Assembly (NCBI GenBank): GCA_019054805.1
Contig: JAHQIY010000005.1
Span: 1 to 64,000, forward strand
Origin: Brachionus manjavacas
Lineage: Eukaryota; Rotifera; Eurotatoria; Ploima; Brachionidae
Direction: 5' to 3'
Length of the DNA: 64,000 bases
In this document: in pieces, positions 15,001 through 63,500 of the stretch
How the letters are laid out: every line of letters begins with the position of its first letter
How positions within the stretch are numbered: position 1 is the first letter of the stretch
The notes under the pieces: generated by a model
What the model was told of the DNA's origin: nothing
What the model saw: the letters and a program-made list of their open reading frames with translations, nothing else
The model's database searches: none
Made by a program: the position numbers and the translations under genes

Positions 15001-15861
15001 GCATTTACTTGCAAACTAAGTGACTGGTAATTACTTGCAAGTTTCGCAAGTGCATAACTTTTCGTATCTTTGACCTTTTATTGATCTGTAAAAGCCAAAG
15101 GCAAGAAAATCTCAAGATCTATCTAGTGGTATCTTCGGTTTTTAATAATTCGAAAAATTCATTGCAAAAAACCTATCTGAAAAACGTCAAAAAATGGGTT
15201 TTTTGCCCATTTTCGAAGTCGCCTAAAATCTTGCCCTTTAAACTTTTTTGACTCCTGTAAATTGTATCATGTAGAACTTCTTGAGCTCTTGAATTCGAGC
15301 TATTAATCATTATCGTAGCTAAAAAATTGACCATTCTGCACTTACTTGCAAACTAAGTGATTGGTAATTACTTGCAAGTTTCGCAAGTGCATAACTTTTC
15401 GTATCTTTGACCTTTTGTTGATCTGTAAAAGCCAAAGGCAAGAAAATTTCAAGATCTATCTAGTGGTATCTTCGGTTTTGCATAATTCGAAAATTCATTG
15501 CAAAAAACCTATCTGAAAAACGTCAAAAAATGGGTTTTTTGCTCATTTTCGAAGTCGCCTAAAATATTGCCCTTTAAACTTTTTTGATTCCTGTAAATTA
15601 TTTCATGTAAAACTTTTTGAGATCTTGAATTTGAGCTATTAATCATTTTCGTAGCTAAAAAATTGACCATTCTGCACATGCTTGCAAACTAAGTGACTGG
15701 TAATTACTTCCAAGTTTCGCAAGTGCATAACTTTTCGTATCTTTGACCTTTTTTTGATCTGTAAAAGCCAAAGGCAAGAAAATCTCAAGATCTATCTAGT
15801 GGTATCTTCGGTTTTTCATAATTCGAAAAATTCATTGCAAAAAACCTATGTGAAAAACGTC
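1..15861 (+). repeat. Satellite array, left block, forward orientation (~337-bp monomer)
   Basis: Head-to-tail tandem copies of an AT-rich monomer run from the left edge without interruption, so the array continues outside the window. Landmarks such as the stretch around the GATCTATCTAGTGGTATC motif recur every 335-338 bp, giving about 47 copies by division. Two linked-variant subtypes are interspersed: one reads CCCTTTAAAC then GACTCCTGTAAATT, the other CTTTTTAAAC then GATTCCTGCAAATT. Indels are frequent, for example a shortened copy near 10,131-10,200 and irregular copies at 12,730-12,990. Copies at the far left (about 340-600) are the most diverged. No ATG-initiated conserved reading frame runs through the monomer. 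The array has the features of a satellite DNA; centromeric or other function cannot be judged from sequence. Confidence 0.98.
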
Positions 15862-53095: not shown

Positions 53096-56000
53096 TTATT
53101 GGTTATGACCCAGAGTATATTTTACTTGATACTTGGACAGTCTAATGTATTTGTCAGTATTTGGGTTTAGAAACGAATCAGTTATTAAATTAGACTGGTT
53201 AAAGTCAAAATTTCCTATTGAATTAAATGATTCGGAATTGTTGGTTTTCGTTCTTTTAAATGAATCATTTTTTTGGCTGTTTTTAAAAGCTTGAATTGAA
53301 TTCCACAATTTGTTGGTATCACTTTGGCTTATTTTAAGTGAATTGAGCTTTTTCTTGTTCGATGCTAATAGACTTGGCAAGTCTTTGATACCTTTGGAAA
53401 TAATTGTATTGTAATATGCACTCATATCGACATTTTCTAGAAACTCTTCCAATGTTTTGATGCTTTCAAATTTTCGCTTGCCAATTTCGCTACTCTTTTT
53501 TACCAAAATCGAACCTGTTTTAATTAATTGTCCATTTGGATTATCATTTTTTTTTATTCTTGTATACAAATCCTGAACTCTAAGCGCTTCATTTAAATTT
53601 TTAAGAATTTCATAATTTTTGCGACCCTTAATAACCAAGGTGAAAATTTCCCCATTGTCGTCTTGATGATTTAAAAAGGAATTTTTTTTATCCTTGTCAG
53701 TACTGTTTATTAATTTGACACTTTCTGATTTAACAGGTACTTTTTCTACACCAAGTTTTTTATTTTTGTTATATTTATTCTCATCAGTAGCTCTGTCTCG
53801 TCCAGGACAGGCACATATCTTGATTTCAAATGAGCTACGACCCAAAATTTCGCCACTAAAATTTTAAAATAAATTTAATCTAAACTAAGGACACTAGTAG
53901 TATCACTAATCTTCACTTATTCAATAGACCCTCATCATGGTCAAAAGTCAAAGTATGATTTTTTGAAAAAAAATAATATACAGCATATGGCAGATTTTTT
54001 TTTGGAAGCTCCAATTTGTTTCGACCATAAAAAAATCATCTTATTTAATTCAAATCAATAATAAATTTTAATTTTAGGATAATGAAAGAAAAATTTTTTT
54101 TTTAATTTTCTTTTTAAAAAAAAATTTTTGACCATTTTCGTGTAACTATATATTTGAAAGTAAAAATGAAAACAATGTTTCATGAAAATACGGAGCCTTA
54201 GTTTAGGAATTCAGATATATTGAAGTTTAGAAAATAATTAGTTAAAACTAAAATAAAAAATTAAACTATTAATTAATTTATATCTTAAATTTAATTCTTG
54301 TAAAGTACAAAATTATAAAAAGGAAGATGTTTTTTTAATAGTTAAATGTTTTTGTAATAAAAAAAAAAGAGCTGTTCTGGAAACAGTTAATACAGTAAAC
54401 CTACCAACACTACAAAATAAAACTAGATAGTGAAAAAGGGGTCAAAATTTGTCAAAATTGATCCAACGAGATGAAAAAAATACTAATTTTTTTGTTCGAA
54501 AGGATACAAAAAAAAAAGAAAAGTAAACAAACTATTAATTCCTTTCTTTTACAGTATTGTCGAGATTTTCCGTTTTTACTAAATTTTATGAAAATTACTT
54601 AATATCCCATGATTTAATGTAAAATTACTAAAGTATAATTTAGTCAACTTATCGGATTAAAATTATAATTATAAATTAGCTAAGCGTTGGTAAATTTTTT
54701 TATTTTTTATTTGTGTGTTTTTGCATTACGGAATTTTTCGTAAATTTTGATAAAAATAGAAAATCATAGCCCATTTATTTGGTGAGTTAATTAATTAATT
54801 TCTAGATAAATTAATTTTTTTTGATAATATTCTGCGAAATAAAATTTTTTTTTAGGCATATTTGCTAAAATATTTAATATTTGTGGAAGGTCTACTGAAA
54901 CAATTAGTAAAAAATTAATTCAAGTTTTTTTGATCTCTAATTAAATAAGAATTGTGAATTTTAGGATTTTTCATACTTATATTCCAGAGTTAAGACGATC
55001 CTGAGTTGTTTTTGGCTGCCTCCAACACAACTGCTGTAGCACATGAATTGATATAAAATAGTCGAATAAGCAGAGCCAGCTTAAAAACGGCTTTATTTTT
55101 TTTTTAATTTTATAATTATTTACTTTGAGGTTTTTCAAATGGTACTGTGACACTTTGTCGACGAGTGATTACTTCTTCTTCATAAACTGCTTGAGAATGA
55201 CGACATCTGATGAAGTGACTTAGAGCTGATTCAAGAAGGTCTTTATAAAAATGATTATTTTTTTATAATGTTTTTAGATCTTTAATTAAATACCATCGGA
55301 ATCAAACTCTTTGCTTTTCTTGTGGTTTTCACAGCGAGTTACAATTTGCTCAATGTGTTCATATTTGGAAAAAACTGGCGTAGCTCGAACAATTGATCCC
55401 GAAGGAGGGAGGCTTGAAACAGAGACATCAATCGGACAAGCTACGTTCGGATGACAATAAAGTTTATTTAATTTGTGTGAAAACTTTAAAAAATAATTTT
55501 TTAAATTTTTATAAAAAAAACAAAAAACTAACAGTCCAGGAAGTTGATTTTTTAACTGGAGCTTCGGAGCTAAGTATACTTATATTGAAATTATAAGGAC
55601 CAGAGAAGCTATCACTAAATAAACAATTTTAAATAAGCATTTTTAATTTTTAAAAGGTTACATTGATGGAAGATTAGAAGTGGGAGGTCCACTGTCAATC
55701 GGTGAAACGATATTTTGAAAAGCCTAGATTTATTTTTTAATCATTTTTAGTTGAAGATTTTATTAAAATTTTTTTACATCAAACTCAATAAGGGGTTCAT
55801 TTGTATTTAAATATGAATTGAGCTAAAAGTTTATGAATTTTAGTTTTTAATAATTTTTAACTTAATTACCACTTGTGAAATTGAAGTTTGAGGTACCAAA
55901 AGGTGTGTTCCAATAACCTCTACATTATTGCTTGATGAGTCCTCACTGTGTTCAGCTAATTCAATAGTTGTGGGCAAATCTTTGGCTATATCATAAAATT

Positions 56001-56108
56001 CGCTATGAAAATTAATAATAAATATAATTGAATTCAATTTCTTATTTTAAAGATCAATTACTTTGGATCGAATCTTGATAGAAAGCTAAGCCCGCTATTT
56101 TGAGCCAT
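53096..56108 (-). CDS. p53/p63/p73-family transcription factor with SAM domain (nine exons)
   Basis: A sequence-specific nuclear transcription factor of the p53 family, with p63/p73-like architecture. Exons (minus strand): 56,108-56,062; 56,002-55,870; 55,822-55,778; 55,723-55,662; 55,614-55,533; 55,483-55,294; 55,240-55,124; 55,079-54,977; 53,855-53,096. All introns are GT-AG, phases match at every junction, and the product is 512 aa. Residues 17-26 ([10 protein letters not shown]) align with the p53 transactivation/MDM2 box. The DNA-binding domain spans about 97-285, with KLYC (130-133), RATPVF (156-161), MCYSSCVGG (238-246) and CACPGRDR (274-281). Zinc ligands are C174, H177, C239 and C243. 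The tetramerization domain is about 326-360 ([20 protein letters not shown]) and the SAM domain about 380-440. Human K120, R175, G245 and R282 equivalents are kept; R248 and R273 equivalents are lysine, and the R249 equivalent is glutamine. ATG context is AACATGG. Seven introns are 44-59 bp; the eighth is 1,121 bp. Start and first two exons are less certain than the rest. Confidence 0.93.
53856..54976 (-). other. Long last intron (1,121 bp) of the p53-family gene
   Basis: It begins GTATGAAA and ends AAAATTTTAG on the minus strand and joins codon bases AA and T to give one asparagine, in frame on both sides. Its content is AT-rich with long A and T runs, and I found no further exon or recognisable mobile element in it. 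It is about twenty times longer than the gene's other introns. Confidence 0.8.
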
Positions 56109-58303: not shown

Positions 58304-61300
58304 TCAAAATTCTACCGCAATAATTGCCAAAGGCAGTCCTATATTCATGGGACCAAATAGCTTAGTTAAACTTCCGTCCAAATTAATTTTAAATGAGAAA
58401 GCATTAGCCGAGTTTTGATTAAGTACAATTACATGTTCCTTTAAAACGTAAAAATCCCTCGGAACTTTACCAAATGTATCATAAGTTCCAATATAACTCA
58501 ATTGACGTCCATTTTCTAAAATTCTAAATGCACTTATGCTATTTGTGTTGCCTCTATTCGAAACATAAAGAAACTTTTGATCTAACGAAATTCGAATTGC
58601 ACCAGCCGATTGACCATCAGAAGAAATACTCGGTGGCAATGTGCTTATTTTTTCGAAAACAATGCTTAATGTGCCACTAGAAGAATCTATGGATAGAATG
58701 CTTATATCATTTGAAAATTCATGAACTATGTATGCAAAAAGACCATTTGGATGAAATGCTAGATGCCTTGGTCCTCTTTCTGTACTAAGTCCATCGGGTT
58801 GGTTAGGATTCTGAATACACTCGCCTGTTAGTTCATTAGATTCATAGTTTAGTATTTTATTCTGGCCAAGGTCTGGTGCATAAATAAATTTATTTTTAAA
58901 AGAATAAACACTATGTAAATTTCCGCTATTAAAATTGTCCAAAAAAACTCTTGGTCCGATTGAGCCATCACAATTTCTTTTATAAACACTTAATGCACCT
59001 CCGTCACTGTAGTGAGCAATGTAAAGGAAATTTTCGTTTTCATCAAGTGAAATATGAACAGCATTTTGACCACCAGTACCTTGGACAGAATTTATTTTGA
59101 CTAGCTCTCCATTATTTTTTTTGTCAATTCTAAATGATATGACATTTGATTCTTCATTAGTTCCGATAAGACTATTAACTGAATAGAGATAGTCACCACT
59201 CTTGGTAGTAGTCATGTAGATAGAATTTTCACCCACGTAATCTGACAAATATTGTTTAAGTAGTCTCAAAGAGCCATCGGTCTTTCTAAATTCATAAGCT
59301 TGAATTGAATAATTAGAAGCTTTTCCTTGTAACCATTCGCCTTCGGGTCTATCCGAATAGCTTCCGACATAGACAATAGTTTTTGCACCATTTAATAGCA
59401 TGGTATCTGTTGTATCTTGAAATTTTTAATTAAATTAAACAATTATTAAGTTAAATAAGCATGACGAAATTCTGACTGTCCTTTTTTTTGTTATTAAAAT
59501 TTAAAAGTTATTAAAAAAAATGAAGGATCAATCTAAAGTACGACTGAATATACCTTTTTGAGGATTTTTTTTTAAAGAAAAAAGGTTTTAGTTGACATAT
59601 TTTGAAAATAATTTTCCGCAGATAAAAAAGTCAAAAACATTATCTAATAAAAAAATTGATTTTTTTTACAACCAAAACAATAAAATGGATGTTAAAAATA
59701 TCAAAATTTTAATCGAAAAAAAAATTTGAAATAATTTAGGTTTTGATATTGGGATATTTTCTTAAAGATCTTAACGAGCTCAACCTTAAAATATCAAAAA
59801 TCTGAAAATCGTAATTTTCTTTAAAAATGTTTAGAAGCTTAAAGATTTAATCAAAATGGTAATTTCTTGGTCAATTTTTAAGATACTTTTTTTGATTTTT
59901 TTTATACAGTCAAAACAAAGATAGCAATTAAAACAGAAATTCAGGGTTTGCTGCTGTTTGAGACTCTCAATTATGTAAATATGTAAATTAATCACTTTAA
60001 CAAATAAATAAAATATACTCTAAAAAATTTGTAGAAATTTTGATTGTTTTTTCATATTTCCGCTTATTATTTGTAAAAAGATAGAAAACAGGTTTATTTT
60101 CCAGACAATTATGGCTAAAAAAATATTAAATATTAAGATTCTTTACTAGGGAATTTTTGAGATCACCCGAGTAGGTTTATATAATTGAAAAAATTAACTT
60201 TTCACACATTTTTTTCAGTATACCGTATTCTTTGTTGGATATTGCAGACTCATAATCCCTAAGCTCTTATGCATGCAACAAACACCATTTCGTCCATGTT
60301 AAAACTATCTTAATTTACACTTCGAGTTCTAAAGATCTTTTTTAAGCATTTAGCCCGCCTTAAAATCCCGTTTTTTAAGTTTAATGCGGTATTAATCTTA
60401 AAAAACTTGATTTTAATTCGACTTTTTAATTTTGAAATTTAGAAAATCTACATAAATTCTATCATTTTCATTTTTTCATCATAATTTTTAGACACTAGCA
60501 TTTTCATTTGATCTTATGCTATGGACTTAAATTAAAGATTAGATAAAAGAAAATTAAAAAATTTGGATTTTTACATTATGGCTCTCTAATTTCTAAATAA
60601 AAATTTTAATTTCTTTTTTTAATTTTCAACATTATTTTTAACTTTTTAGAATAATGAACAGAAATTAGCACAAAAAGAAAAATTTTTAAACAAAAAAAAT
60701 ATGTATAAAACGATGGGCATGTTCAATGTTTGATAATTTTCGAAAACGTGTTTAAAAATTTAGATGTTTTTCACTTTTTTAAACTTATGTTATTGAACTT
60801 TCTAAATTAAAAATTAATTTAAAGAAGAAAAAAAATTTACTCCAAAAAAACTTTTTAAATTAACCTAATAAGATTTTTTACTGTGATTTCTAAATTCTTT
60901 ATTTTATGAGATTCATTTTTAGTGAAGACATTTTTGACATTTGAAGAAAAGTTTTCGGTTAATTTGGAAGAAACTTTTCATATGTTTGTAAGAAATAAAA
61001 AAAATCTAAAGCTTGTCTTTTATTAAGAACCCTATAACTTAATTATATTTCGAGATATTTCTTTAATTTATAAAGTTTAAAATTTTTCTCATCTCTAATT
61101 TTTCTAATATAATTCAAATTAAATGTTTTTTATTTTAACTTTTCTAATCAATGCTTTTCAAAATTTTGAAAATAATATTACACACCTGATGCATAAGTAA
61201 ACTTTTGATAAACGGTTTCGGGTTTTCCAAAATAAGTAGCTAAAATCGAACCAGCGAATAAAAACGAAATAACAACTGCTAAAAATATGGCATGACTTTT

Positions 61301-62539: not shown

Positions 62540-63500
62540 GAGATTTTTAGCGGTGTACCATAAGGGTCAGTGATTGGTCCACTTTTGTTCGTTTTGTATA
62601 TCAATGATCTACCAAAAGGAATAGAGAATCTTGTCAAAATGTATGCAGACGCTACTAAAATATTCTCACAAAAGGTATCAGAAATAAGCGCAGTGAAACT
62701 ACAATCAGATTTAGATTAAATTTTCAAGTGGACTCAAGATTGGCTTCTTCTCTTCAACACATCAAAATGTGTAGTTATGCATTATGGTCATAAAACAAAG
62801 AATTCTCTTATTTTATCAATGGTAAGTAGTTATCAACGTCAGAAGCCGAAAGAGATCTTGGAGTTATTTTCAATTCAAATCTTAAATGGAAAAATCAAGT
62901 GATAGAGGCTACAAACAAAGCAAATCAAATGTTGGGTCGCATCAGGAAATTATTCGCGCGTTTGATTGTAAGTTATTAAGATCATTGTTTTAACTTATTT
63001 TCGTCCTCTTTTGGAATTTGCGGTGCCTTTATGGTCTCCAATTCTTAAGTCGGACTGTGAGAATGTTGAAAGGATTCAATGTAGAACTACGAAATTTGTT
63101 TCTTCAATTAGAAACAAACCGTATGAAAGCAGATTGAAAGCTTTAAACATTCCAAATCTGGTGGAAAGAAAAAAAAGAGGTTATCTAATTCAATTATACA
63201 AGTTCATGGATGAAATAAAATTGTTTGAAAAAGCAACAATTATAATGTGACAAAAATTCAAGGAAAAGGTCACTGCTTCAAATAATCACAAAGAAATTTC
63301 GAGGCTCCAACATAGAGATAACTTTTTTTTCAACAGAACTGCTAACATAAAGAACTCGCGGCCAAATCAATTAGTTGAAGCCCTCAATGTTAACAGCTTT
63401 AAAGCAGGCATTGATTGCTGGATGCGCAGCAATCGATCACATCAGCTGTCATAGTGTGCCTTATCAGCACACTCGCTGGCTAGGCTTTTAAGTTTAAATT
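62540..63500 (+). mobile_element. Degraded CR1/L2-like non-LTR retrotransposon (reverse transcriptase remnant and 3' end)
   Basis: Pieces of a reverse transcriptase occur in order: GVP-stop-GSVIGPLLFVLYINDLPKG (from about 62,550), MYADATKIF (about 62,640), FKWTQDWLLLFNTSKC, ERDLGVIFNSNLKW, then FRPLLEFAVPLWSPILKSDC (about 63,000) and LVERKKRGYLIQLYKF. Near 63,385 come LNVNSFKAGIDCW and a stop. The family's GVPQGS motif has a stop in place of Gln (TAA for CAA), a second stop interrupts near 62,716, and the catalytic YADD box reads YADA, so the second Asp is lost; frame changes separate the blocks. After the last stop a 7-bp hairpin (AGTGTGC / GCACACT) precedes an A/T-rich tail near 63,490-63,525. 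The element is inactive. Confidence 0.9.

Follow-up and report, generated by a model that had tools for sequence, protein, structure and literature searches.

R248 and R273 of human p53 are its most familiar contact hotspots. Among the described members of the family, Drosophila p53 comes closest to the protein considered here. Lys259 of the fly protein occupies position 273, its loop L3 carries a deletion and Arg249 has no equivalent, with DNA-binding specificity being preserved (PMC2807882). A further study scores the fly protein as having Lys at both 273 and 249 with Arg248 conserved, and describes native Drosophila p53 as weakly active in yeast, its activity rising when a human activation domain is supplied (PMC4323202). 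The same source reports that CEP-1 of C. elegans keeps Arg248 and Arg273 and displays Asn and Leu at two of the zinc-ligand positions. The p53 homologue of Alvinella pompejana keeps Arg248, Arg249 and Arg273, and the annelid Capitella as well as molluscs possess a p63/p73-like layout including a SAM domain (PMC8901663). As for rotifers, p53 is reportedly missing from the bdelloid Adineta vaga, whereas Brachionus koreanus has one (PMC10809525). A construct carrying the R273K change is also listed in PMC10600207.

The window analysed here is a stretch of 64,000 nucleotides from the rotifer Brachionus manjavacas (assembly GCA_019054805.1, contig JAHQIY010000005.1, positions 1 to 64,000). It includes a p53-family gene on the minus strand, at 53096-56108, constituted of eight exons, all bounded by GT-AG signals and mutually consistent in phase, which encodes a product of 497 residues with no internal stop. 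Its features are the following.

56062..56108, minus strand: exon 1, with the presumed ATG start at 56106-56108 and a GT donor whose phase fits exon 2
55870..56002, minus strand: exon 2, N-terminal region with a TAD-like stretch at 55972-56001, AG/GT borders
55662..55723, minus strand: exon 3, AG/GT borders
55533..55614, minus strand: exon 4, start of the DNA-binding domain, loop L1 with the Lys aligned to K120
55294..55483, minus strand: exon 5, DNA-binding domain with the equivalents of C176, H179 and R175, Gln replacing the acid at 171
55124..55240, minus strand: exon 6, DNA-binding domain
54977..55079, minus strand: exon 7, equivalents of C238 and C242, loop L3
55006..55017, minus strand: L3 codons AGC CAA AAA CAA (Ser-Gln-Lys-Gln), where the references have M/L-N-R-R-P, one codon being absent
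53096..53855, minus strand: exon 8, strand S10, recognition helix, tetramerisation motif, SAM-like tail and stop codon TAA
53819..53821, minus strand: AAG codon, Lys at the human R273 position by alignment

The p53 DNA-binding domain (Pfam PF00870) is recognized at residues 83-272 with an E-value of 4.2e-56 and spans positions 4-192 of the 193 of the profile, so that the match to the p53 family is not due to chance. The nearest solved chain is human p63 (1.1e-57 in a PDB search), with 7pc6 and p73 close behind, and identity over the domain reaches 47% with human p63 and 45% with 7pc6 in the MAFFT alignment. Chain 7pc6, presumably the Alvinella pompejana p53 described in PMC8901663, also has a p63-like DNA-binding domain, but its loop L3 is of full length. 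CEP-1 does not appear among the best 60 of the 102 matches of a PDB profile search performed with an alignment including the window protein (alignment A1).

A tetramerisation motif (PF07710, E 1.1e-9) is found at residues 310-341. It matches p53 oligomerisation chains of the PDB from 4e-6, the top match being a designed protein with two p53-like stretches (1.5e-9). At the equivalents of M340, A347 and L348, presumably the interface residues in human numbering, the rotifer product displays Ile, Ala and Leu, whereas CEP-1 forms dimers and carries charged interface residues. The motif also distinguishes it from the predicted p53 of Helobdella robusta (T1EE77), which lacks an intact tetramerisation domain and in which a key contact residue, unnamed in the accessible part of the source, is changed (PMC8901663). 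The C-terminal tail suggests a SAM-like region, as the SAM_1 profile scored 18.2 bits (E 0.0033, below the Pfam cut-off of 23) and, in a further Pfam search, 19.7 bits (E 0.0011), the best PDB match being a SAM domain (0.017). A structure prediction from exon 8 alone gave a pLDDT of 32. This putative SAM-like tail would set the rotifer protein apart from fly p53; CEP-1, likewise a divergent invertebrate p53, has a SAM domain.

A single p53 locus was found in the whole assembly (114 Mb, 61 contigs): four candidates were scored, three of them matched, and all are exons of the present gene, no second copy being found. Because exon layout, Pfam and PDB matches and whole-assembly search agree, the gene is real, intact in its layout and single-copy within this assembly. 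Relatives were also looked for in other sequence collections. With the DNA-binding domain as query, two stretches of viral contigs fitted the pattern and neither was a relative; with alignment A1 as query, no relative was present among 70 stretches of viral contigs or 24 stretches of genome contigs.

Several elements surround the gene or were met along with it. The stretch at 55972-56001, which we take to resemble the human p53 activation motif, misses the tryptophan of that motif. A 337-bp satellite fills positions 1-50905 of the window, i.e., the contig up to 50.9 kb, with about 151 copies; it switches strand at 15861/15863, and its edge lies about 2.2 kb from the end of the p53 gene. Related copies occur at least on contigs C16, C22, C24 and C37, the four scored of 249 candidates, and the available part of a satellite study (PMC8447722) makes no mention of a 337 unit length. 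Upstream of p53 and on the same strand, a single ORF of 373 residues (58304-59425, minus strand) matches the Lactonase (7-bladed propeller) family with an E-value of 2.5e-63 and was possibly acquired horizontally. On the plus strand, a frame at 62972-63250 resembles by eye the end of a non-LTR reverse transcriptase, with no Pfam match. Elsewhere in the genome, the sole SWIB match (G000:C5:213009-213191) appears SMARCD-like and not MDM2-like, as judged by eye and without an MDM2 positive control. The sole COX1 match (L005, G000:C21:120555-121901) is a gene for a 661-residue bacterial-type oxidase in an operon-like setting, and contig C21 of the assembly may therefore be of bacterial origin.

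Most of the DNA-binding domain is conventional. All four zinc ligands (C176, H179, C238 and C242) and the equivalents of R175, G245, R280 and R282 are aligned by both HMMER and MAFFT, which bears out the initial annotation with regard to the zinc ligands, R175, G245 and R282, and the ICACPGRDR stretch matches the references letter for letter. When the base contacts are taken from PMC2807882, the equivalents of K120, A276, C277 and R280 are all present, the L1 Lys falling in an invariant Lys column. Fly p53 differs in this respect, as its L1 is shorter and A276 is replaced by Thr, whereas the rotifer protein has a full-length L1 and keeps Ala276; fly and human p53 share 24% identity (PMC2807882), as against the 47% between the rotifer domain and human p63.

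At the position of human R273 stands a Lys (AAG, 53819-53821), in a block that is ungapped in both the HMMER and MAFFT alignments, and the lysine formerly reported there as K272 is thus confirmed without alignment ambiguity. The interval then assigned to the domain, 53840-55079, leaves out the CACPGRDR stretch (53792-53821) and stops about 20 bases short of the lysine codon. Residues formerly numbered K249, Q250 and K272 become K234, Q235 and K257 in the present gene model; their spacing is unchanged, and the uniform shift of 15 residues arises because the gene start was modelled differently.

The assignment of positions 248 and 249 depends on where loop L3 is shortened. Between its second Cys and the LE of strand S10, the rotifer protein is one residue shorter than human p53, p63, p73 and 7pc6. 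MAFFT places the missing residue at 246. When 18 gap places were enumerated, 246 was also the best under BLOSUM62, BLOSUM45, BLOSUM80 and PAM250, and a gap at 250, which yields the pairing of the initial annotation, ranked second. Codon parsimony over 11 gap places, summed over the four references, requires 40 nucleotide steps at 246, 44 at 247 and 48 at 248-252. HMMER sets the gap as MAFFT does against 7pc6, whereas against p63 and p73 position 248 falls opposite the gap. Residue 246 is most likely the missing one, by a modest margin, which would make position 248 a Gln (CAA) and position 249 a Lys (AAA); under each placement considered, neither carries an arginine. Thus, the first reading of this loop, with Lys at R248 and Gln at R249, was right in reporting the loss of arginine but probably exchanged the two residues, because first letters were paired ungapped despite the shorter loop. 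Likewise, the claim that both contact arginines are replaced by lysine holds at 273, whereas 248 is better read as Gln (Lys or a gap in other alignments). From that observation as a whole, the peptides of exons 7 and 8, Lys273 and the zinc ligands stand, and the 248/249 pairing and the interval have to be revised.

Arg248 and Arg273 are therefore both absent, although they are not strictly family-defining since fly p53 is devoid of Arg273. The rotifer and fly proteins have in common Lys273, a shortened L3 and no Arg249 equivalent, and as fly p53 keeps its specificity, DNA binding is known to tolerate Lys273 and a shorter L3. As a precedent, the fly protein is exact in two respects only, Lys273 and the shorter L3 devoid of Arg249, since it conserves Arg248 (PMC4323202), which the rotifer protein lacks. 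This precedent makes the initial observation less surprising. The accompanying statement that the arginines are kept in most members overlooked Drosophila p53 but agrees with CEP-1 and Alvinella, which keep Arg248 and Arg273; among the invertebrates compared (the fly, C. elegans and, for the spiralians, Alvinella), Lys or Gln at these sites is encountered at 273 in one arthropod only. While Lys273 with a short L3 is known from the fly, its combination with a position 248 devoid of Arg was not found in the accessible parts of the literature, and titles and abstract openings of the rotifer literature contained nothing on these p53 residues.

Conservation in the rest of the domain helps to weigh these changes. 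The rotifer protein keeps 70 of the 107 columns that are identical in p63, p73 and 7pc6. Seven of the ten columns that are Arg in these three proteins are kept, the lost ones being 248, 249 and 273 (a descriptive count, too small for a statistical test), so that the changes cluster at the DNA edge and no general Arg-to-Lys shift is seen. The view that this is not simple decay is upheld, the losses at the R248 and R273 equivalents being located within an otherwise well-kept domain. A further change concerns position 171, which is Gln in the rotifer protein, Glu in p63 and 7pc6 and Asp in p73. In human p53, E171 pairs with R249, and the change of both 171 and 249 fits what is expected if the L3 anchor was rebuilt.

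With a probability of about 0.68, the gene would encode a functional single-copy p53-family factor whose contacts with the minor groove and the backbone have been remodelled, broadly as in the fly; its expression, fold, tetramer, binding and specificity we infer from sequence. It is probably a natural variant rather than a broken gene. The major-groove reading head (equivalents of K120, A276, C277 and R280) is kept along with the zinc site, and the protein would for this reason most likely still read CWWG-centred p53 half-sites as a tetramer, the predicted assembly reaching the CWWG core via the major groove and retaining hydrophobic interface residues. The minor-groove and backbone grip would be remodelled by an L3 one residue short, most likely at 246, by the putative replacement of the minor-groove Arg248 by Gln, by that of Arg249 by Lys together with the lost acid at 171, and by a conservative change of the backbone contact Arg273 to Lys. 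Contact through the minor groove and backbone is predicted to be weaker or differently tuned. Gln at 248 is a known loss-of-contact change at a human hotspot, so that DNA binding could be much weaker, and altered specificity or weaker binding, as initially proposed, is possible.

It is conceivable, albeit unlikely, that AT-biased mutation simply caused Arg to drift to Lys with little functional effect. Indeed, GC content is 25-26% around the gene (about 26% for the p53 region), the protein contains 47 Lys and 17 Arg, and AAA and AAG are one G-to-A step away from AGA and AGG; genes of Brachionus-like rotifers have 26-29% GC (PMC6555955). However, with seven of the ten invariant Arg columns unchanged, the replacement is not general, and drift leaves the L3 deletion and the change at 171 unexplained. 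Slightly less probable again is that canonical sequence-specific binding was lost, the protein being a weak or non-specific binder that acts via other surfaces or on different sites. The replacement of Arg248, Arg249 and Arg273 together points in this direction, as do the use of the human R273H domain as a binding-deficient control and the impaired binding of R249S (PMC8901663). Sites can also co-diverge with the protein, CEP-1 being inactive on ten sites and active on its own AAACATGTTT site (PMC4323202). Against such a loss, the zinc site and the major-groove contacts are kept, and fly p53 retains specificity with Lys273 and a shortened L3 (PMC2807882).

Recoding that returns arginine in the mRNA is very improbable, since a restored arginine would still leave the L3 residue missing and since, when all six frames of the window were scanned with a small set of p53 motif patterns, a single L3-type exon and a single CACP-type exon came up, with no alternative L3-type exon in the large intron 7 or elsewhere. 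A-to-I editing could turn CAA, AAA and AAG into Arg codons, and the genome includes genes with adenosine-deaminase domains (seven matches in three places, ADAR and ADAT not being distinguished). The best duplex at the L3 and S10 sites was equalled by none of 40 random sites, a control biased by its composition as 1494 of the 3201 bases of the stretch are exonic and about half are non-exon. Of 45 exon-only sites, two reached the strength of the L3 site and three that of the S10 site, in a coarser scan that scored S10 at -29.8 instead of -32.9; most of the signal was gone, and RNA editing is not supported as an explanation.

The reading of the gene as a functional, remodelled p53-family factor can also be pushed further. 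In this stronger form, which we consider doubtful, selection would have produced a protein combining an R248Q equivalent and a one-residue L3 deletion with R249K, the lost acid at 171 and R273K, independently of the fly, DNA being read almost wholly via the major groove and site preference being shifted. If true, this would show that a classic cancer-inactivating change can be bypassed in a viable way. More generally, a working p53-family protein without either Arg248 or Arg273 would offer a natural test of which contacts are indispensable. Together with fly p53, it would suggest that a protein can rebuild its grip on the minor groove and the backbone, and it may be relevant to DNA recognition by p53 in a genome rich in AT.
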